Source: Neoroseomonas rubea
Lineage (GTDB): Bacteria; Pseudomonadota; Alphaproteobacteria; Acetobacterales; Acetobacteraceae
Length of the DNA: 53,414 nucleotides
Assembly (NCBI RefSeq): GCF_016106015.1
Contig: NZ_JACADQ010000006.1
Span: 1 to 53,414 of the forward strand
Direction: 5' to 3'
In this document: positions 412-46,661 of the stretch, in pieces
How the letters are laid out: the number at the start of each line of letters is the position of its first letter
How positions within the stretch are numbered: the stretch's first letter is position 1
Translations under genes and position numbers: made by a program
Notes under the pieces: generated by a model
Databases searched by the model: none
Told to the model about the DNA's origin: nothing
What the model saw: the letters and a program-made list of their open reading frames with translations, nothing else

Positions 412-504
412 GGCACCACCCCCTCCTCAGGGGTTCACAGTGCCCAAAAACTTGCCCTCCCGCTGGACCAGTTTCGAGGGTCAGGACCAGGTCAGGACCA
501 AGCG

Positions 505-600
505 ATGGGAGGCGTGGCGATGGGGCGGAAGATGGCGCACACGCCTGAGGAGATCGTCGCGAAGCTGCGGCAGGCGGAGATGCTGATCGGCCACGGCGCG
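505..600 (+). pseudogene. Second IS3-type OrfA head fragment
   Basis: The plus strand reads MGRK, then HTPEEIVAKLRQAEMLI, the usual opening of a different IS3-group OrfA (the HTPEEIVAKLRQ type). The match ends at about 597, where the opposite strand becomes the reading frame of the livG-like gene. Only about 30 residues remain. The 10-bp unit GTCAGGACCA occurs twice just upstream (480-489 and 491-500) and may be part of the element end. The element is therefore a remnant abutting, and probably responsible for, the livG truncation. Confidence 0.6.
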
Positions 601-1104
601 CGCCAGGTCCACTCGCTTGCGCAAGCCGCAGGAGAGGGTTCCTGCGATCGCCTTGCGCACGTGCTGAATCTTTAGGAAATCAACGATCTCCTCGATTTCG
701 CGCCGATGCGCGAGTTCCTCACGCTGCGCGCCACCGAACCAATAGGCCATCCCGCGCAGAAAGCCCGTGCGCAGCAGGTGGTGTCGCCCAACCAAGATGT
801 TGTCGAGCACTGTCATGTGGCCAAAGAGAGCGAGGTTCTGGAAGGTGCGGCCGATGCCAAGCGCGGCACGCCGATTGGGGCGCAGCGGCGTGACGTCGCG
901 GCCCTCGAACAGGATTCGTCCTTCCGTCGGCCGGTAGCGTCCAGAGACGCAGTTGACCATGGAAGTCTTGCCTGCGCCGTTCGGACCGATGATCGAAAAG
1001 ATCTCGCCGCGCCGAACAGCGAAGGACACGTCGCTCAGCGCACGAACGCCGCCAAAGCTCAGGCTGACGCGGTCGGCCTCGAGAACAGCCGTCTCGACAC
1101 CCAA
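595..1104 (-). pseudogene. livG: Truncated branched-chain-type ABC ATPase (LivG-like)
   Basis: This is the ATPase of a LivFGHM-type importer for branched-chain amino acids or related compounds, which would act on the cytoplasmic face of the permease. The Walker A motif GPNGAGKT is at residues 40-47. The Q-loop region TFQNLALF and the LivG-typical insertion about FLRGMAYWF follow. The signature region is degenerate: LSCGLRKRVDLARA replaces the usual LPYGxQKRVELARA. The homology stops at about residue 172, before Walker B and the H-loop, so no working ATPase can be made. The apparent frame continues to 481 only by reading through IS DNA. The start is a TTG at 1104 behind AGAAGAAGAGGGG. The gene lies 75 nt downstream of the phosphodiesterase gene on the same strand. 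Confidence 0.8.
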
Positions 1105-1179: not shown

Positions 1180-1926
1180 TCAGCCGCGGAGCGCAATCGC
1201 GAGCGGCGGATCGTCCGTTGCGAGGAGGTCGATGCCGAGATCGAGCATGCGCTGGATCGACGGCGCGTGATTTGCGCCCCAGACGGATATGCCAAGCCCC
1301 GCCGATCGCAAGGTGGCGCAGGTCTCGGCGTCGAGCACTGATTCATGCACACCGATCTCGGGAAAGCCGTAGGACGTCGCGACGGCGATCGTACCGCGTA
1401 CGCCAAGCGCCCGGAACGTCGCTGATTCCAGCAGCCAAGCGACGCCCCCCAGGCCGCCGAGCGCCACAGCTTCAGCCATCGTCGGCGCGTCGAATCCGAT
1501 AACCCAGGCCTGCCGGCGGATGCCCGCCCGATCCAGTTCGGCCAGCACCCGGTTCACGAGCCCCGGATAGGGACGCCCCTGGCCATCATCCTTGATCTCG
1601 ACGCGCGGGGCGACCTTGGAGCCGACCAGCGTCACCAGCATGTCGGCCAGCATCGGCACAGTCTCGCCGCCGCCGCCCCGCAGCCGCAGTCGGCGGAGTT
1701 CATCGGCGGTCCTCGCGACGACACGACCGCGCCCCTCCGTGGTCCGCTCGAGTGTCGCGTCGTGAATGACCACTGCCTCCCCGTCCGATGAGGCGTGGAC
1801 GTCGCACTCGGCCTGTTCGAGTGCGAGGCCAGCGGTGGCGCGGAAAGCGGCCAAGCCATTCTCGGGCCAGAGGAAGGCTCCGCCGCGGTGGCTGGCGATC
1901 GCGGTTCGGCAAGGAGGCATCGTCAT
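1180..1926 (-). CDS. Glycerophosphodiester phosphodiesterase family protein
   Basis: This 248-residue, probably cytosolic enzyme would split glycerophosphodiesters into glycerol 3-phosphate and an alcohol. The GDPD TIM-barrel signatures are visible: SHRGG and PENGLAAF near residues 12-30, the acidic pair and HD in ECDVHASSDGEAVVIHDATLERTT (residues 39-62), and VEIKDD near 114. The C-terminal barrel strand ends in GIDLLATDDP. Length fits the short bacterial UgpQ type, with no signal peptide. The ATG at 1926 has no clear Shine-Dalgarno; the ATG two codons inside is an alternative. It is divergent from the DctP-type gene and sits upstream of the broken livG, which suggests the lost ABC system once served a glycerophosphodiester or related substrate (inference). 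Confidence 0.85.
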   Translation of the reverse strand: MTMPPCRTAIASHRGGAFLWPENGLAAFRATAGLALEQAECDVHASSDGEAVVIHDATLERTTEGRGRVVARTADELRRLRLRGGGGETVPMLADMLVTLVGSKVAPRVEIKDDGQGRPYPGLVNRVLAELDRAGIRRQAWVIGFDAPTMAEAVALGGLGGVAWLLESATFRALGVRGTIAVATSYGFPEIGVHESVLDAETCATLRSAGLGISVWGANHAPSIQRMLDLGIDLLATDDPPLAIALRG

Positions 1927-2057
1927 TTCAGTTGCGTCCCATCGGCAGATGGCCCCCCTCGGCCGGGTCGGGCCAGATGACGTTTCTTAATGGTGAGCGT
2001 GAGATAGTTCGCGTAAAGGTAGCAAGTCGCCTTCACAAATACCCGCAGGAGGCAGCA

Positions 2058-3131
2058 GTGGTTGGAGGGGCCTTGAGGCACCTGGCGATATGGGCGATTT
2101 GCGCGATCGGATTGCTGGGTAGCGCGGGCGTTGAGGCACAGCCCACCGCCGAGGCGCCCATCCGTATCAAGATTGTCGGCGGGCTCGCTGATGTGAGCCA
2201 GTACGTCCGGTATGAGGAACCGTTCTGGCGCCGGCGGCTGCCTGAGGTGTCCGGCAATCGGATCCAAGCCGAGATCGCCCCTTTCGATCGTAGCGGCATC
2301 CGCGCGCAGGAGATGCTCGCGCTCATGCGCCTTGGCGTCGTGCCGTTCGGGACGGCGTTGCTCGCGGTCGTCAGCGCCGACGAGCCCGAATTCAACGCGG
2401 TCGACCTGCCGACGGTGAACCCCGACATGGCGGCACTCAGGCGGACGGTCTCGCTCTACCGCCCGCATCTGGAGGCCGTGCTGGCCGATCGCTACGATGT
2501 CGAATTATTGGCCGTCTATACATACCCCGCTCAGGTCCTATTCTGCCGGAATGCCTTCGCGGGGCTATCGGACCTTGCAGGCCGCAGGATCCGGACATCC
2601 TCGGTCGGGCAATCCGAGATGTTTGCGGCACTCGGCGCCACGCCTGTCGTGATACCGTTCGGTGAGACCCTTGCCGCCATGCGCTCGGGCGTCGTCGAAT
2701 GCGCGGTAACGGGGACGCTCTCGGCGAATGCGATAGGGCTGCATGAGATCACGACGCACATGCATGGCATGGCCGTCACATGGGGGCTGTCGGTCTTCGG
2801 GGCGAACCGCGCGGCCTGGAATGCGTTGCCGGATTGGGCGCGGGCGATGATCCGACAGGAACTCGCCGGGCTCGAGCGTCAGATCTGGGAAGCGGCTGAA
2901 GTTGAGACCGGCGAGGGCATCGCCTGCAATTCGGGCCAGCCCGCCTGCGCAACCGGGCGGAGGGGTACAATGACGGTTGTCCCTGTGACCGCGGCCGACC
3001 AGCAGCGCCGCCTTCGCCTGTTGACGGAGACGGTCCTGCCCGGATGGGTTCGGCGCTGTGGGGAGCCCTGCGTCGACGCCTGGAACATGCGTCTCGCGCC
3101 AGAACTTGGCGTCACCGCCCGACCCGACTGA
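2058..3131 (+). CDS. DctP-type TRAP solute-binding protein, kinase-linked
   Basis: This is a 357-residue periplasmic protein of the DctP family, which normally hands organic acids to a TRAP permease. The start is GTG 2058, because a perfect AGGAGG at 2047-2052 sits 5 nt upstream; longer frames have no such site. A signal peptide (hydrophobic residues about 8-23, probable cut after VEA at 27) is clear. The DctP core includes DLAGRRIRTSS, ATPVVIPFGETLAAMRSGVVECA and a long C-terminal helix. Odd features are four extra cysteines in two close pairs (CNSGQPAC and CGEPC) near the C-terminus, possibly disulfides. No TRAP permease gene is present. The stop lies 2 nt before the kinase ATG, so the protein is probably a ligand receptor for that kinase rather than a transporter part. 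Confidence 0.82.
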   Translation: MVGGALRHLAIWAICAIGLLGSAGVEAQPTAEAPIRIKIVGGLADVSQYVRYEEPFWRRRLPEVSGNRIQAEIAPFDRSGIRAQEMLALMRLGVVPFGTALLAVVSADEPEFNAVDLPTVNPDMAALRRTVSLYRPHLEAVLADRYDVELLAVYTYPAQVLFCRNAFAGLSDLAGRRIRTSSVGQSEMFAALGATPVVIPFGETLAAMRSGVVECAVTGTLSANAIGLHEITTHMHGMAVTWGLSVFGANRAAWNALPDWARAMIRQELAGLERQIWEAAEVETGEGIACNSGQPACATGRRGTMTVVPVTAADQQRRLRLLTETVLPGWVRRCGEPCVDAWNMRLAPELGVTARPD

Positions 3132-3133
3132 CG

Positions 3134-6037
3134 ATGCAGAATACGGTCTTCCTTCGTCGCTCGATTTTCATTGCGGCCATGGTCCTTCTGCTTGCGCAGA
3201 CCGCGGCCACCTTGATGATCATCGGCCGGGCCAGGGAAGCGCAGATCCGCGCGGCGGAGGAGACCGTCGAACGCATCGGCCTGGCGACGGAAGCGTCCAT
3301 CAACCGCGCCTTCGTCCAGGTGGACGCAATGCTGGCCGGTCTGCCCGCGCTGCTCGCTCACTTCGCGCAGGACGGTCGCATGGACATCGCCGTCCTGAAC
3401 CGCGTCCTGCGGCAATTCAACAACCAGAACTTCACCTACCGCGATATCCTGCTGCTCGGCCCCAACGGACTTCCAGTCGCAACCGCCTTGCCGGTGTCAC
3501 GGCGCCGCCGACTTCCTTTGCCGGTCGAGACCGGCTTCTCGGAGCTCGCGGAGCGTGGGGGCGGCGTCTCGATCGGGGGTCCAGTGCAGAACCCGTCGAC
3601 CGGCGAGTGGACGCTTTTCTTCGCGCGCAACGTGACAGTCGTCGGCGTCGGGCCCGTGCTTGCCGTTGCAGAGGTGCCGGTGCCCTCTGTTCGTGCATTG
3701 CTCTCAGCCGCAGGCGAACCAGACGGCGTGCGCACGACGCTCGAGCGGGACGACGGCGTACTCCTTACATCGGTTCCTCATGACGAAACGCGCATAGGCC
3801 AACGACTTGAGCCGCCGGCACGGCAATTGGCGACCAGTCAGCGCGCGATCCTCACGACAAGCCGCTTTTCCGGTCGCTCCGTATTCGCGTCAGTCAGGCC
3901 CACTCTGTACCCGACCCTGTTCATCACAACGACCTTCGAGGTCGACGCTGCCCTGGCAAGTTGGTACCGCGACAGGGTCCGTGCGTTCGCCGTTTCCAGC
4001 ATTCTCGGTATCGTCATCATCGGTGTTGCGCTCGCGCTCATGGTGATCCTGCGCCAGCGCGACAAGGCGGAGGCCGAGCGCGCCCGCGCCCGCCTGACGC
4101 TGGAGAACGCGCTGGAATCGATGTCCGACGGCTTCGTCATGTTCGACGCCGACGACCGTCTGACTGCTTGCAACAGTCGCTACCGCGACTTCTACAAGAT
4201 CAGCGCGCCCTTCATCCAGGCCGGGGCCCGCTTTGAAGACATCATGCGGGAAGGAGCAAAGCGCGGGCAGTATCCACAGGCCGGCGACGACATCGAAGCC
4301 TTCGTCACGGAGAGCAAGGCCTTCCACCTCGGCAACCAGCCACCGATGGAGCGGCTGCTTCCGGACGGGCGTTGGGTTCTAATCACGGAGCGGCGCACGC
4401 CCGATGGCGGCACAGTCGGGATCCGGACCGACATCACCGCGCTCAAGCGGGCGATGCAAGACCTAGCCGCGGCTCGCGACTCGGCCGCTGCAGCAGGGGA
4501 GGCGAAAAGCCGCTTCCTTGCCAGAGTGTCGCATGAACTGCGGACGCCGCTCAACGGCGTGCTCGGCTTCGCGCAGGTGCTCCTGCAGGATCCCAGGCTG
4601 CAACCGGAGCAACGCGAGCAGGTCAAGACGTTGCACGAAGCCGGCCGACATCTGCTCGACCTTGTGAACGGCCTACTCGACCTGTCGAAGATCGAGGCCG
4701 GCCGCCTCGACCTCGCGCCGAGGCCTGTGGCACTCCAGCCGCTGCTCGATGGCTGTGCGACCCTCCTGGCACCGGAGGTGGCACGCAAGGCACTCTCCTT
4801 CCACCAGGATTTCGATCCCGCCCTGCCGGACGCAGCCGAACTTGATCCCACGCGGTTGCGCCAACTGCTGCTGAACCTCCTCTCCAACGCGGTCAAGTTT
4901 ACGCCACCGGGCGGCCGGGTGGACCTGCGCGTAAGGCGGCCGGAGGAGAAACTGCTGCGCATCGAGGTGCAGGACACCGGTCCCGGCGTTCCGGTAGACA
5001 AGCGCCACCTTCTGTTCGAGGATTTCGTCCAACTGACTCCGCAGGCCTCGGCGGAAGCCCAGGGCACCGGTCTCGGCCTCGCGATCTCAGCTCGGCTTGT
5101 CGCATTGATGGGCGGTCAGATTGGCTGCGACGCACCGGCTGCGGGCGGAGCGCTGTTCTGGATTGAGATCCCGCTACACGAGACGTCCCTCCCACTGCCG
5201 GAAGACAATGCTCGCCCGCCTTACGCGACGCAGGATGCGCAGGAAGGCGACCCGCTGCGCCTGCTCGTCGTCGATGACGTCGCCGCGAACCGCCAGATCG
5301 CCCAGGCCATGCTGGAAAGCGCTGGACACGAGGTGGAAACCGCGCCGGACGGCGCCGGCGCGATCTCGGCTCTCGCCCGGGGCGTTTTCGATGCCGTCCT
5401 AATGGACCTTCAAATGCCCGGAATGGACGGATTCGAGACGACCCGCCGCATTCGCGCCCTCGAACCGCCCGCCCGCGACGTTCCCATTATCGCGTTGACC
5501 GCATCGGCCCTGCCGGAGCAGGTCGAGACGACACGGCGCGCCGGCATGGATGCACATCTCTCTAAGCCGCTCGACCGGGCTGCGCTGCTTGGTCTTCTTC
5601 GCCGCCTGCCGGCACGGCGCACCGCTGAGGATCCGCCTATGCCCGAAGTCGCGCCCCCCTACCTCGACGGCACCGCGCTCGACGTGCTCGAGCGCGAACT
5701 CGGGCATGCGGCGCATGGCATTCTAGCCGAATTCGTCGGGGAGGTGCGGCGCGCCCTGTCGCTCCTGACCAATGCATCGCCGGCCGAGAAGGCAGATGCG
5801 GGCCATGTCCAGCACGCGGCGCATCGTCTGGTCGGCGCGGCACGGACGCTCGGCGCGACACGCCTCGCCGATTGCGCTCTTGCGCTGCAACGCGCAGCGA
5901 GTGGCGGAGACCCCTCTGCCGACCTCCAGGCGGAAGTGATCTCCATCGCGCGAGCGACACTCCCGGCACTGGAACAGCGCCTGGGCGTGGAGAGCGTCGC
6001 CGCAGCGGTGCCGCTGCAGACAGCTGGCGCGGCCTGA
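3134..6037 (+). CDS. Hybrid sensor histidine kinase with PAS, receiver and HPt
   Basis: This 967-residue inner-membrane kinase has TM1 at about 10-30, a periplasmic dCache-like sensor at about 31-283 and TM2 at about 285-306. A PAS-type domain follows at about 322-437, then HisKA with phospho-acceptor His467 in SHELRTPLNG. The ATPase has N-box NLLSNAVKFT (581-590), G1 DTGPGVP and G2 GTGLGLA. The receiver carries Asp758 in VLMDLQMPGMDG and Lys811. A C-terminal HPt has His897 in HRLVGAA. The layout predicts a His-Asp-His relay needing a separate regulator, and none lies next to it. The start is 2 nt after the DctP-type stop, implying coupled translation. In the HPt, the lysine usual in H-x-L-K-G is valine. 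Confidence 0.9.
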   Translation: MQNTVFLRRSIFIAAMVLLLAQTAATLMIIGRAREAQIRAAEETVERIGLATEASINRAFVQVDAMLAGLPALLAHFAQDGRMDIAVLNRVLRQFNNQNFTYRDILLLGPNGLPVATALPVSRRRRLPLPVETGFSELAERGGGVSIGGPVQNPSTGEWTLFFARNVTVVGVGPVLAVAEVPVPSVRALLSAAGEPDGVRTTLERDDGVLLTSVPHDETRIGQRLEPPARQLATSQRAILTTSRFSGRSVFASVRPTLYPTLFITTTFEVDAALASWYRDRVRAFAVSSILGIVIIGVALALMVILRQRDKAEAERARARLTLENALESMSDGFVMFDADDRLTACNSRYRDFYKISAPFIQAGARFEDIMREGAKRGQYPQAGDDIEAFVTESKAFHLGNQPPMERLLPDGRWVLITERRTPDGGTVGIRTDITALKRAMQDLAAARDSAAAAGEAKSRFLARVSHELRTPLNGVLGFAQVLLQDPRLQPEQREQVKTLHEAGRHLLDLVNGLLDLSKIEAGRLDLAPRPVALQPLLDGCATLLAPEVARKALSFHQDFDPALPDAAELDPTRLRQLLLNLLSNAVKFTPPGGRVDLRVRRPEEKLLRIEVQDTGPGVPVDKRHLLFEDFVQLTPQASAEAQGTGLGLAISARLVALMGGQIGCDAPAAGGALFWIEIPLHETSLPLPEDNARPPYATQDAQEGDPLRLLVVDDVAANRQIAQAMLESAGHEVETAPDGAGAISALARGVFDAVLMDLQMPGMDGFETTRRIRALEPPARDVPIIALTASALPEQVETTRRAGMDAHLSKPLDRAALLGLLRRLPARRTAEDPPMPEVAPPYLDGTALDVLERELGHAAHGILAEFVGEVRRALSLLTNASPAEKADAGHVQHAAHRLVGAARTLGATRLADCALALQRAASGGDPSADLQAEVISIARATLPALEQRLGVESVAAAVPLQTAGAA

Positions 6038-6115
6038 CACGTTCAGTCTGGGCGGGTGGACCGTCCCTGCGCAGTGACTAGGATGATCCGGGATGGCAGG
6101 GGAGTTCCGGACAGG

Positions 6116-6991
6116 ATGATCGACGGCCGTTGGCGCGCGAACGAGGCGCGCGAAGAACCCCATCCGGACTTGCGTGCGGTCGCCACGGAGGCCCTCGTCG
6201 CGGAATCCGCCTGCGGTGACGGCGCCATGATCTGGCGCGCATGGGGCATCGGCCGCCCGCTCGTAATGTTCCACGGCGGGTCGGGGTCCTGGCGGCATTG
6301 GGCCAGGAATATCCCGTTCTTCGCCGAAAACCGCCGGGTCATTTGTCCCGACCTGCCGGGTCTCGGCGACAGCGATTTGCCGACGATGCCGGCCACCCCT
6401 GACGGCATTGCCCTGATCCTACGGGACGGGCTCACCCGACTGCTCCCGGAGGGGGGATATGATCTTGTCGGCTTCTCCTTCGGCGCACTCTGCGCGGGAC
6501 ACCTCGCGGCGATCGATGTCGGTCGCTGCGCCTCGCTGACCATCGTCGGAGCCGGCGCGCTTGGTTTCGCACGCAGCCCAACGGAACTCGTCAAGGTCCG
6601 CAACCTCGAAGGCGCGGAGCGCGAGGCGGCGAACAGGCACAATCTCGCCGCCCTCATGTTCGCCGATGCGTCGAGGATAGACGAGGTCGCACTCGCGATG
6701 CAGGACCTCCATACGCGGCGCGCACGGTTCAAGAGCCGAGGCTGGGCAGGAACCGACTCGCTGCGCCAGGCCATCCTGAGAAGCCGGGCGCCACTCGCTG
6801 CGATATATGGGGAGGAGGATGCCATAGCCCGCCCGCATGTGGGGCTACGCATTGACCTGGTACGCGAGATGCGCGTCGGCGCGCAGACCGCGACCATCCC
6901 TGGCGCCGGGCACTGGGTCGCATACGAGGCCGCCGAGGCGTTCAATGCCGCCCTGTCACACATCCTGAAACGTGACGGCGCCGACGCGTGA
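6116..6991 (+). CDS. Alpha/beta-fold hydrolase
   Basis: This is a soluble serine hydrolase of about 291 residues and unknown substrate. The oxyanion loop is HGGSGSW. The nucleophile elbow is GFSFGA, with the catalytic acid probably in YGEEDA and the histidine in GAGHWVAYE, giving a full triad in the right order. I prefer ATG 6116, 11 nt after GGGGAG; ATG 6083 and GTG 6056 are in frame but have weaker sites. The stop overlaps the next start as GTGA, so it is co-translated with the DMT transporter. Ring-cleavage or lactone hydrolases of this fold often sit in catabolic clusters, but the function here is not shown. Confidence 0.8.
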   Translation: MIDGRWRANEAREEPHPDLRAVATEALVAESACGDGAMIWRAWGIGRPLVMFHGGSGSWRHWARNIPFFAENRRVICPDLPGLGDSDLPTMPATPDGIALILRDGLTRLLPEGGYDLVGFSFGALCAGHLAAIDVGRCASLTIVGAGALGFARSPTELVKVRNLEGAEREAANRHNLAALMFADASRIDEVALAMQDLHTRRARFKSRGWAGTDSLRQAILRSRAPLAAIYGEEDAIARPHVGLRIDLVREMRVGAQTATIPGAGHWVAYEAAEAFNAALSHILKRDGADA

Positions 6992-7950: not shown

Positions 7951-8733
7951 ATGACCACCATCGGACCGCTGAGGATCGCCCCGATCCGTGGCTCGGTGAG
8001 CGAGGCGGAATGGCAGGCGCGGCTTGACCTGGCGGCCTGTTACCGGCTCTGCGAGCATTTCGGCATGTCGGACATGATCTACACGCACATCAGCGCGCGC
8101 ATACCCGACAGCCCCAACCACTTCCTGATCAACCCGAACGGACTCTTCTTCGGGGAGATCACCGCTTCCTCCCTGCTCAAGGTGAGCATGGAGGGCGAGA
8201 TCGTCTATCGCCCCGACCTGCCCTACGGGCTGCATCCGGCCGGCTTCACGATCCACAGCGCGCTATATCGTGCCCGCACCGACGTGATGGCGGCGATGCA
8301 CACCCACACCATCGCGGGCATGGCCGTCAGCGCACTGAAGTGTGGACTGTTGCCGCTGACGCAGACGGCGACCCGCTTCTACGGGCGCATCGCCTACCAC
8401 GACTTCCGCGGCCCCGAACGAGACCCGGCGGAGCGGGACGCGCTGGCAACCTCCCTCGGCGGCCTGAACTACTGCATCCTACGCAACCACGGCCTGCTGA
8501 CCGTCGGCGAAAGCATGGCCGAGGCCTTCATTGCGATGTGGGGCCTGGAGCGCGCCTGCCAAGCGCAACTGCAGGCCATGGCCTGCAACACCGAACTCGA
8601 GATGCCGAGCCCCGAAGTGGTTACGAAGTCATGTGCAATGTACGCACCAGGCGCGTCCCGCCGCTACGGCCCGCTTGAATGGCAAGGGCTGCTGCGGCGG
8701 ATCGACGCCATCGATCCGTCCTGGAGGGAGTGA
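7951..8733 (+). CDS. Class II aldolase/adducin-family protein
   Basis: This 260-residue cytosolic metal enzyme belongs to the fold shared by fuculose-phosphate aldolase and adducin heads. It starts at ATG 7951 behind GGAGGG. Zinc ligands are visible as HTH in AAMHTHTIAGM and a later histidine in RNHGLLT. The N-terminal fold signature LAACYRLCEHFGMSD and THISARIP are clear. Family members cleave or decarboxylate small hydroxy-acids and sugar phosphates, but many in catabolic operons have unknown substrates. The gene is 1 nt upstream of the Bug binding-protein ATG, so the pair probably handles one compound. Confidence 0.85.
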   Translation: MTTIGPLRIAPIRGSVSEAEWQARLDLAACYRLCEHFGMSDMIYTHISARIPDSPNHFLINPNGLFFGEITASSLLKVSMEGEIVYRPDLPYGLHPAGFTIHSALYRARTDVMAAMHTHTIAGMAVSALKCGLLPLTQTATRFYGRIAYHDFRGPERDPAERDALATSLGGLNYCILRNHGLLTVGESMAEAFIAMWGLERACQAQLQAMACNTELEMPSPEVVTKSCAMYAPGASRRYGPLEWQGLLRRIDAIDPSWRE

Positions 8734-8734
8734 C

Positions 8735-9697
8735 ATGCGCCGCCGCGATCTTGCCGCGCTTGGCCTCGCGAGCATCGCGCCTCGGATCGCACGCGCCCAG
8801 GATCCCTGGCCGAACCGTCCGATCCGCCTCGTCATTCCCTTCGCCGCCGGTGGACCGATCGACACGGTAGGCCGGCTCATCGGCGAACGGCTTCGGGACA
8901 GGCTCGGCCAGCCTTTCGTCATCGAGAACCGCACAGGTGCGGGCGGGTCGATCGGGCTGCGCAGTGTCGTCCAGTCGCCGCCCGACGGCTATGCCTTCGT
9001 GCTCACCTCCTCCTCCCTGGCGATTCTGCCGGCGATCTACGCCAATCTCGGCTTCGATCCGCGAAGCGACCTCACGCCCGTTTCGCTGGTGGCCGAGATC
9101 GCGACGACGATCGTTGTCCGCGCCGACCACCGCTTTGCGTCGCTTCAGGCGTTGGTCGAGGAAGCACGCGCGAGGCCCGGCACTGTCACCTACGGAACGT
9201 CGGGAATCGGATCCTCGAACCACCTCTCTGGCGCGATGCTGGCGGCGACCGCGCAGATCGACATCGTGCACGTTCCCTATCGCGGCGCGGCACAGGCAAT
9301 GAACGCGCTCTATTCGAGGGATATCGACCTCGTCTTCGCCAGCACCGTGGAAACGCTGTCTCATGCGCGGGAGGGCCGCGCGCGCATCCTCGCCATCACA
9401 ACCGCGCAGCGCATCCCGGCATTGCCCGACGTACCCGCCGCCATGGAGACCGTCCCAGGCTACATCGCCCCGAACTGGTTCGCCATCGCCGCGCCCAAAG
9501 GGCTGCCGACGCCAATCCTCGATCGCGTGTCGGCAGAACTCGCCGCGCTGCGAACCGATCCGGATTTCCGGTCACGCTTCGAGCGGCTGGGCGCGGAGCC
9601 GTTGATGAGCGCGCCCGGCATCCTTACCGCACGCCTCGCGGAGGACGTGCCGACCTGGCAGCGCGTCGCAGCCGCCGCCGGCATCCGCCCCGAATGA
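8735..9697 (+). CDS. Bug/TctC-family solute-binding protein (copy 1)
   Basis: This 320-residue periplasmic binding protein of the tripartite tricarboxylate family would bind a carboxylate-type ligand. The start ATG 8735 follows the aldolase TGA by 1 nt, with GGAGGGAG at 8723-8730. The leader MRRRDLAALG ending ARAQ is short and Tat-like, cut near residue 21. Bug landmarks are WPNRPIRLVIPFAAGGPID, a VIENRTGAGGSIG loop, SPPDGY, YGTSGIGSSNHL and HVPYRGAAQAM. No TctA or TctB permease gene accompanies it anywhere in the window, as is common for the expanded Bug families. Confidence 0.92.
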   Translation: MRRRDLAALGLASIAPRIARAQDPWPNRPIRLVIPFAAGGPIDTVGRLIGERLRDRLGQPFVIENRTGAGGSIGLRSVVQSPPDGYAFVLTSSSLAILPAIYANLGFDPRSDLTPVSLVAEIATTIVVRADHRFASLQALVEEARARPGTVTYGTSGIGSSNHLSGAMLAATAQIDIVHVPYRGAAQAMNALYSRDIDLVFASTVETLSHAREGRARILAITTAQRIPALPDVPAAMETVPGYIAPNWFAIAAPKGLPTPILDRVSAELAALRTDPDFRSRFERLGAEPLMSAPGILTARLAEDVPTWQRVAAAAGIRPE

Positions 9698-45446: not shown

Positions 45447-46661
45447 TCACTCCGCCGGCGCGAATGCCCGTGGCCGCGCCGCCTCCTCCCGCGGCAACAG
45501 CAGCGCCGCGGCGAGCATCGCCGCCGTCAGGGCGGCGAGGATCGCGAACAGCGTCGGCGCGCCCGAAGCCCCTTCCGCGTAGGTCCAGGCGACCAGGTTC
45601 ACCCCGATCGGCGCCGCAGCGAAGCCCATGGCGAACTTCATCCCGAAGGCCAGGCCCCGCCGCCGTCCTGAGGAATAGCGCGCAAGAAGCAGGTTCTCGA
45701 CCGGCGCCGACATGTCGAAGGTGAAGCCGATGAGCGCGGCGGCCAGCACCGCGCCCGGCCCACCGATCATCCCGGCGAGCGCGAGCGGCACCAGCTTCAG
45801 CACGAAGGTCGCGACATAGAGCCACTTGAACGGCAGCCGGTCCGCCAGCCTGCCACCGACCAGTTGCCCGACACTGCCGAGCAGCAGCGTCGCGCCGACA
45901 ACCAGGCCGAGTTGCGCTGCCTCCCCCGCGTCGAGCGCCAGCGTGTCGCTCAGCCATTTCGGCAATGCTGTCTGGAAGGCCTGGTAGACGATGGAGCCCA
46001 GGGTGAAGGTCACGGCGAGCACGACCAGCACGCCGAGTGGCGCGCGACGGTCGGGCTCCGCGCCCATCGCTTGGGCGGCGCGCGCGGGGGCGGCGCTCGC
46101 GACGCGGCCGGTCAGGATCGCCATGACCAGCATCACACCGCCCGCGACGGTGAGCACGCCGGGCACGATCAGCGCTGCGCGCCAGCCGGCGAGGGAGACG
46201 AGGCCGCCCGCAATCGCAGCCGCCAGGGCGACGCCGAAGGATCCAGCGATGCCGAGCCAGCCCATCACCCGCCCGCGGATCTCCACCGGCGCGGCCATCG
46301 AGACCCAGGCCATGCCGACCGGATGATAGAGCGCGCCGAACAGGCCGATGGCGGCCAGTGCCGCAGCCATGCCGGACGGGCCGGCGACCAGCCCCGCCAC
46401 GACCGAGGACGCGCCGATGCCGACGTAGAAGACCGCCATCATGCGCGCATGGCCGAACCGGTCCGCCAGCCAACCCGCCGCCGGCGCGCCGAGGCCTATC
46501 AGCATCGCACCCAGGGTCCAGAGCGTGATGATCTCGGCATAGGGCTTCTCCCACACCCGCTCGAGCACGATGGCGAGCGTGAGAAAAATCCCGGTGAGCA
46601 CGTGGTGCGCGAAGTGGCCCGCCGCGGCGAACAGGACGATCAGCCGCGCGGCCGGGGCCAT
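45447..46661 (-). CDS. MFS transporter
   Basis: This 404-residue inner-membrane carrier has about 12 hydrophobic segments in two halves, separated by a loop at about 190-215. The MFS loop signature between TM2 and TM3 is AGWLADRFGHARMMA (about 63-77), and a second copy is GGRLADRLPFKWLYV in the other half. It starts directly after the glutathione reductase stop, with no gap. Substrate unknown; an exporter is as likely as an importer. Confidence 0.87.
   Translation of the reverse strand: MAPAARLIVLFAAAGHFAHHVLTGIFLTLAIVLERVWEKPYAEIITLWTLGAMLIGLGAPAAGWLADRFGHARMMAVFYVGIGASSVVAGLVAGPSGMAAALAAIGLFGALYHPVGMAWVSMAAPVEIRGRVMGWLGIAGSFGVALAAAIAGGLVSLAGWRAALIVPGVLTVAGGVMLVMAILTGRVASAAPARAAQAMGAEPDRRAPLGVLVVLAVTFTLGSIVYQAFQTALPKWLSDTLALDAGEAAQLGLVVGATLLLGSVGQLVGGRLADRLPFKWLYVATFVLKLVPLALAGMIGGPGAVLAAALIGFTFDMSAPVENLLLARYSSGRRRGLAFGMKFAMGFAAAPIGVNLVAWTYAEGASGAPTLFAILAALTAAMLAAALLLPREEAARPRAFAPAE

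Follow-up and report, generated by a model that had tools for sequence, protein, structure and literature searches.

We analysed a window of 53,414 nucleotides, positions 1 to 53,414 (forward strand) of contig NZ_JACADQ010000006.1 in the 5.0 Mb draft genome of Neoroseomonas rubea (Acetobacteraceae), and within it a pair of adjacent genes encoding a DctP-family solute-binding protein (SBP), P0001, and a hybrid sensor histidine kinase, P0002 (Table 1), which probably form a single receptor. Among the named loci compared below, the closest relative is Neoroseomonas nitratireducens, whose binding protein is 96% identical.

The gene pair and its predicted domains

The binding protein frame runs from GTG 2058 to TGA 3131 (357 aa; the mechanical list of open reading frames places its start at 1788, GTG 2058 being chosen here), and the kinase frame opens with an ATG 2 nt after that stop, with no Shine-Dalgarno-like stretch seen upstream of this ATG on reading the junction. 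Across 83 paired loci, some of which are the same contig twice, the start nearest the stop lies at -11 to +15 nt in 79, a nearest-start choice that biases towards short gaps.

The binding protein belongs to the DctP family (Pfam PF03480, 61.1 bits against a cut-off of 23.4) and also matches NCBIfam TRAP_S1 (72.4 bits, cut-off 50), with TIGR00787 dctP at 52.2 bits under its cut-off of 175. Its AlphaFold2 (AF2) model, with a predicted local distance difference test score (pLDDT) of 91.2, has the fold of the binding proteins of tripartite ATP-independent periplasmic (TRAP) transporters, its best VIA structure match being 2pfy at Z 33.6 with a root mean square deviation (rmsd) of 2.8 over 301 residues. 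The top two matches are the pyroglutamate-binding proteins DctP7 (Z 33.6) and DctP6 (Z 33.2), with which 4n4u ties at Z 32.8, and the pyroglutamate-specific 6wgm scores Z 32.1. The periplasmic part of the kinase is predicted to be a double PDC (dCache) sensor, its model superposing on structure 3lif with an rmsd of 3.5 across 234 residues; numerous other dCache chains score Z 15-18. Pfam found nothing in kinase residues 31-283 at E 0.1, dCache_1 included, and a distant relative (L186; L numbers denote our loci) matches dCache_1_like at 37.4 bits against a cut-off of 27.

The genome holds 18 DctP matches, of which the window protein is the weakest (61.5 bits), and 19 DctM matches, none of them on the window's contig (DctQ was not searched for in the window). 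By that DctM search no cognate permease stands beside the binding protein, as one would for a TRAP transporter; a trans-encoded permease is possible. The original prediction, made from the letters of this DNA, had thus described the locus well: the DctP-type protein and hybrid kinase 2 nt apart, with AGGAGG before the binding-protein start, are borne out by the sequence and by Pfam, the claimed lack of a TRAP permease agrees with the DctM search of the contig, and its dCache-like sensor is matched by a predicted double PDC fold.

Table 1. Features of the gene pair (positions in the window; pTM, predicted template modelling score)
Feature	Position	Strand	Basis
AGGAGG ribosome-binding site	2047..2052	+	Ends 5 nt before GTG start; read directly from sequence
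DctP-family solute-binding protein P0001, proposed periplasmic co-receptor	2058..3131	+	Pfam, NCBIfam, AF2 model, VIA structure match
Probable Sec signal peptide, residues 1-27	2058..2138	+	Judged by eye (hydrophobic stretch, VEA|Q)
Arg179, invariant in compared receptor-linked and TRAP-linked members (1.00 and 1.00)	2592..2594	+	Alignment
Leu228, separates receptor-linked (Leu) from TRAP-linked (Trp) members	2739..2741	+	Alignment comparison
Hybrid sensor histidine kinase P0002, 967 aa	3134..6037	+	Pfam domains
Periplasmic sensor, residues 31-283, predicted double PDC/dCache	3224..3982	+	AF2 pLDDT 86.2, pTM 0.76; VIA Z 19.7 to 3lif
PAS_7 domain	4112..4453	+	Pfam 92.4 bits
HisKA	4502..4702	+	Pfam 75.7 bits
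HATPase_c	4844..5179	+	Pfam 93.6 bits
Receiver domain (Response_reg)	5264..5593	+	Pfam 86.9 bits
Hpt domain	5720..5944	+	Pfam 38.0 bits

Conservation of the pair among relatives

An orthologue of the binding protein is present in all 34 same-genus relatives sampled, cut or fragmented in three of them (G013, G017, G025). A homologous sensor adjoins the binding protein in 33 of 35 named loci (one of the 33, L063, being split into several frames), the remaining two (L047, L065) stopping at a contig edge, and two DctM queries at E 1e-3 together with a DctM profile found DctM in the flanks (up to 8 kb) of none of the 35, DctQ not being searched for. The original prediction had looked to conserved gene pairs in relatives for its support and to a cognate permease, always found with the orthologues, for its undoing; these loci have the former and none of them has DctM in its flanks. 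The surroundings of the pair are largely syntenic within Neoroseomonas, as would be expected if the pairing were conserved synteny only, with no functional meaning, whereas Falsiroseomonas, Roseicella, Caldovatus and others retain the pair with different genes downstream. Simple synteny was rejected because the pair persists beyond the genus with most of its neighbours changed, and with the pair also occurring in Comamonadaceae beside a different output domain we regard this explanation as very improbable.

Kinase residues 1-310, searched against 299 genomes of the order, gave 90 matches in 78 genomes, and 84 of these matches were examined; such genome searches score only the best few first-look candidates per genome (5 to 7), so that match counts are lower bounds. 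The binding protein adjoins the sensor in 74 of the 84, and one pair (L156) is divergently arranged. When a sensor alignment was used to search the class and the phylum, another 79 distinct matches were obtained, mostly weaker and partial, from which 32 were retrieved (20 and 12). Six of the 20 have an adjacent binding protein, and of the six matches above 130 bits five have one, the exception being L183.

Sensor homologues without an adjacent SBP were counted by adjacency, an unlinked binding protein not having been searched for in those genomes, and include L137, L140, L141, L153, L166-L170 and L183; in L140 and L153 an IalB-like gene lies upstream of the sensor in place of the binding protein. 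Candidate sensor residues lost in these relatives are D217, L258, D64, D104 and Q98, as judged from 13 SBP-less rows that are few and clustered.

Separation from permease-linked relatives and exchange of outputs

TRAP-type paralogues of the binding protein (L067-L078, 27-38% identity) have DctM nearby in 12 of 12 loci. In a phylum sample (33 matches in all, three not retrieved) DctM lies within a 1.5 kb flank in 24 of 29 non-window loci, the other five being two with a sensor and GGDEF-EAL, one with a hybrid kinase (L206/L233) and two contig ends. A tree of 68 binding proteins, built by a quick method with no bootstrap and with L187 as a long branch, places 37 receptor-linked rows on one side of a branch with a Shimodaira-Hasegawa-like approximate likelihood ratio test value (SH-aLRT) of 99, and receptor linkage is one change apart from the 29 permease-linked rows (in L176 the permease is about 2 kb off). 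Position 228 divides the proteins in the same way, being Leu in 37/37 receptor-linked and Trp in 29/29 permease-linked rows. Leu228 is also found in each of the 119 orthologue- and sensor-locus matches above 300 bits (many being one genome under several locus numbers), in L206/L233 and in the Comamonadaceae receptor loci L251-L253, whilst the subfamily member of seven permease-linked plasmid loci (L254-L260) has Trp. Because more distant DctP proteins have other residues at this position, the Leu/Trp rule is valid for this subfamily only. Arg179, which we take to be the TRAP ligand-binding arginine, and six cysteines are invariant across a 40-row alignment of both branches.

L206 sits just outside the receptor-linked branch, its placement unresolved, and the L206/L233 kinase gave no match to the dCache sensor profile built here; an early or separate recruitment of the binding protein is possible in this case. 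In L233 (7532-13764) the neighbours of the Leu228 subfamily member are a hybrid kinase that contains a HAMP domain and a receiver-GGDEF gene.

The division at residue 228 bears on whether the protein does double duty, also feeding a DctQM permease encoded elsewhere much as BctC works with both BctA and BctE of a tripartite tricarboxylate transporter (TTT) system (PMC5812351; this and the papers below are cited from excerpts). Such a role would have, besides the BctC precedent, many DctM genes to draw on in the genome itself, and of another 60 sensor loci 5 have DctM within about 5 kb; in L131, L134, L139 and L145 it lies close downstream of the pair. Yet three extended DctM-bearing loci have a separate Trp-type binding protein, at most 60 nt from the permease (L177, L178) or about 2 kb from it (L176), for which reason a permease shared with a nearby TRAP operon was rejected, and the receptor-linked proteins lack the Trp kept by all 29 compared permease-linked ones. 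The fourth DctM-bearing locus, L180, has a weak DctP match near the permease, and in the fifth, L145, the contig stops about 0.5 kb further on. Double duty seems to us quite unlikely.

The outputs joined to the binding protein and sensor are interchangeable, comprising a hybrid kinase, a plain kinase (L186 and L187, where the kinase has no receiver match) and GGDEF-EAL. The last stands behind the same binding protein and sensor in six loci, L064, L251, L252 and L253 from Comamonadaceae and L190 and L191 from another class of the phylum. In Variovorax paradoxus VAI-C (L252 5013-10989) the annotation lists a GGDEF protein, a 'TRAP transporter substrate-binding protein' and an EAL protein whose gene ends overlap (record CP063167, INQ48_32480/32485); this strain offers a test case that can be cultured. 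Downstream of the kinase lie a PAS-GGDEF-EAL gene in L130 and the receiver-GGDEF gene in L233.

Co-divergence was assessed in 74 pairs, 4 of 78 loci having been dropped because no open reading frame passed both the sensor and the kinase-core searches; at least two pairs of these loci are the same contig. Binding-protein distances correlate with sensor distances at rho 0.90 and with kinase-core distances at 0.77, and the partial rank correlation with the binding protein is 0.73 for the sensor given the core and 0.18 for the core given the sensor. The corresponding values are 0.68 and 0.10 on tree distances, 0.78 and 0.03 in 46 near relatives, and 0.60 and 0.37 when only 60 random sensor columns are used. 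The binding protein has diverged in step with the sensor domain rather than with the kinase core, which linkage alone cannot explain because sensor and core share one gene.

A candidate co-receptor, its ligand and known systems

We put at about 0.7 the probability that the two genes encode one receptor, with a TRAP binding protein made into a dedicated periplasmic co-receptor. The DctP-type protein would be exported and close on a small ligand, and once loaded would dock on the dCache sensor of the translationally coupled kinase as LuxP does on LuxQ. Docking would presumably change phosphorylation of the kinase, and the phosphoryl signal would be relayed by the kinase's receiver and Hpt domains until it reached a response regulator probably encoded elsewhere. 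The binding protein would stem from a TRAP subfamily that left transport, once on the present tree, and the unit of binding protein and dCache sensor would since have been joined to hybrid kinase, plain kinase and GGDEF-EAL outputs. The evidence for this lies in the gene pair with no linked DctM, the single clade with its residue 228 signature, the output exchange and the sensor-tracking divergence; the locus also has the adjacent binding protein and the tandem-PDC hybrid kinase (the sensor fold being predicted) of a LuxP-LuxQ-type system. Association of the two genes is seen in 10 of 11 characterised SBP-activated kinases (PMC11113362).

Several observations weigh against a co-receptor. Adjacency alone is no proof, because AgtS and AruS are not activated by their neighbouring SBPs and adjacency failed there as a predictor (PMC11113362). 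No response regulator gene adjoining the window pair was identified, and domain exchange in the kinase core might in part explain the sensor tracking. An adjacent binding protein is absent from 10 of the 84 sensor loci of the order (one, L133, on a 4.4 kb contig), from 14 of the 20 class- and phylum-level loci (L199 and L201 among them having less than 0.6 kb of contig upstream) and from 12 of 12 remote relatives, which have GGDEF or GGDEF-EAL outputs. The sensor of L183, which has no adjacent binding protein, is 71% identical to that of the SBP-linked L186, so that even a close homologue of such a sensor may lack a binding protein beside it. Direct binding of autoinducer-2 (AI-2) is reported for rpHK1S-Z16 (3lif), the nearest solved sensor (PMC7584622), and this, together with the SBP-less homologues, shows that a binding protein is not obligatory for dCache sensors of this type. 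This absence, growing with distance, and the behaviour of 3lif are what would be expected if the dCache sensor here also bound its ligand directly, the binding protein being a buffer or scavenger or otherwise co-regulated, with no kinase contact. Direct sensing does not, however, sit well with a binding protein that stays with the sensor across output exchanges and whose divergence follows the sensor, not the kinase core, and we consider it unlikely.

Beyond the single receptor, a broader proposal, to which we give even odds, is that a TRAP binding-protein lineage left transport once, presumably with a Trp-to-Leu change at position 228, to yield dedicated co-receptors, and that co-receptor and dCache form a plug-in input module for two-component and cyclic di-GMP (c-di-GMP) systems in Acetobacteraceae and relatives and in Comamonadaceae, sensing cyclic-amide, ureide or nucleobase-type compounds.

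That the ligand is a cyclic amide or ureide is a tentative lead, somewhat short of even odds; candidates, at the level of a lead only, are hydantoin, dihydropyrimidine, allantoin and 5-oxoproline, or else a related nucleobase product. A PuuE-like gene lies downstream of the kinase on the same strand in 8 loci (two pairs are the same contig, leaving 6 independent), the two tested members scoring 303.8 and 314.6 bits, below the cut-off of 424.6. Dihydropyrimidinase is encoded near the pair in L132 (507 bits, over the cut-off) and L136, a nucleoside-hydrolase-like gene in 21 loci (some duplicates; on the opposite strand where checked) and an adenine-deaminase-like gene in 4, the tested members of these last two falling below the cut-offs; most of the searched loci (L031-L085, L116-L260) have none of these ring or nucleobase enzyme genes. 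On the transport side, where 7 of 29 plasmid records were inspected, the operon flanks contain PuuE (L255, L256), hydantoinase/oxoprolinase (L257) and dihydropyrimidinase with an amidohydrolase (L260); L258 and L259 have no such ring-opening enzyme in their annotation, and L254 is an unannotated record. A PuuE-like gene occurs in just one of the 12 paralogue loci (L071, out of L067-L078), and nothing among the neighbours in the window (alpha/beta hydrolase, EamA, class II aldolase, TctC) points to a cyclic amide or ureide.

Elsewhere in the window, a divergent glycerophosphodiester phosphodiesterase gene upstream of the binding protein (1180-1926, minus strand) is kept in many, not all, relatives. 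An ATP-binding cassette (ABC) ATPase at 481-1104 (minus strand) aligns with its orthologues over 166-172 of 207 aa, as though its end had been replaced near the contig edge, and positions 294-493 resemble two Roseomonas plasmids at the DNA level (88-91% identity over about 200 bp in each). A TctC-type binding protein gene at 8726-9694 (plus strand) lies in a run with class II aldolase and metallo-beta-lactamase-fold genes and others that, named by eye, are acyl-CoA dehydrogenase-like and CaiB-like. An ARAGORN tRNA-like call with an odd four-base anticodon at 46225-46320 (minus strand) is probably spurious. A promoter and terminator scan of 1850-6200 gave no excess over shuffles, an Rfam search of the window returned no match at gathering scores, and the binding protein had no match among phage records.

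If the two genes do form one receptor, members of this subfamily that carry the annotation 'TRAP transporter substrate-binding protein' but have no permease could be reinterpreted from residue 228 (Leu or Trp) and the gene next to them, many orphan receptors would gain a testable ligand-binding subunit, and the toolkit of bacterial sensing would have a new source of components. Since the transport and signalling branches divide so cleanly, one could also ask what turns a transporter subunit into a receptor subunit.

Among known systems, LuxP is an ABC/ribose-type binding protein, and in the NspS-MbaA system of Vibrio cholerae a binding protein controls a GGDEF-EAL protein, NspS being a polyamine (ABC-type) binding protein, unlike the DctP type here. 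LuxP-LuxQ (AI-2, Vibrio) resembles the present pair in that a kinase with a tandem PDC senses its ligand through a periplasmic binding protein (PMC8534201), and differs in that the binding protein here is of the TRAP/DctP type, the LuxQ model reaching 257 bits on our kinase against a cut-off of 1200. The analogy with TorT-TorS drawn by the original prediction stands as far as the combination of a binding protein with a hybrid kinase goes (TIGR02956, 337.4 bits, in the kinase-receiver region only and under the TorS cut-off of 676.5), but the TorS sensor is all-helical (PMC8534201) and that of our kinase is predicted to be dCache. TorT-TorS was rejected as a model on this difference of predicted sensor fold, which makes LuxP-LuxQ the closer one. 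In BctC-BctE-BctA of Bordetella the binding protein of a secondary transporter likewise acts on a sensor kinase; BctC, unlike P0001, is of the TctC family, has its cognate permease and fills both roles (PMC5812351). The rpHK1S-Z16 dCache is the closest solved sensor fold (Z 19.7), yet shares 17% identity with ours and is reported as a direct AI-2 binder (PMC7584622). DctP6 and DctP7 of Bordetella pertussis, with pyroglutamate ligands, are the closest solved binding proteins, yet at 17-19% identity, and are treated as TRAP proteins, the membrane components of one of them being apparently broken (PMC5812351). A 2022 survey describes activation of receptors by binding proteins as widespread, kinases and c-di-GMP enzymes included (PMC9602780), and a review of TRAP and TTT systems describes BctC-BctE for TTT, the excerpts of it describing no TRAP co-receptor (PMC5812351). 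A TRAP/DctP-type protein with a shown co-receptor role, for a kinase or a c-di-GMP enzyme, was not found in the parts of the open-access literature searched, subscription papers being mostly outside the search. Sensing through a binding protein is itself already known, and what appears to be new here is a TRAP/DctP-type protein as the candidate co-receptor.

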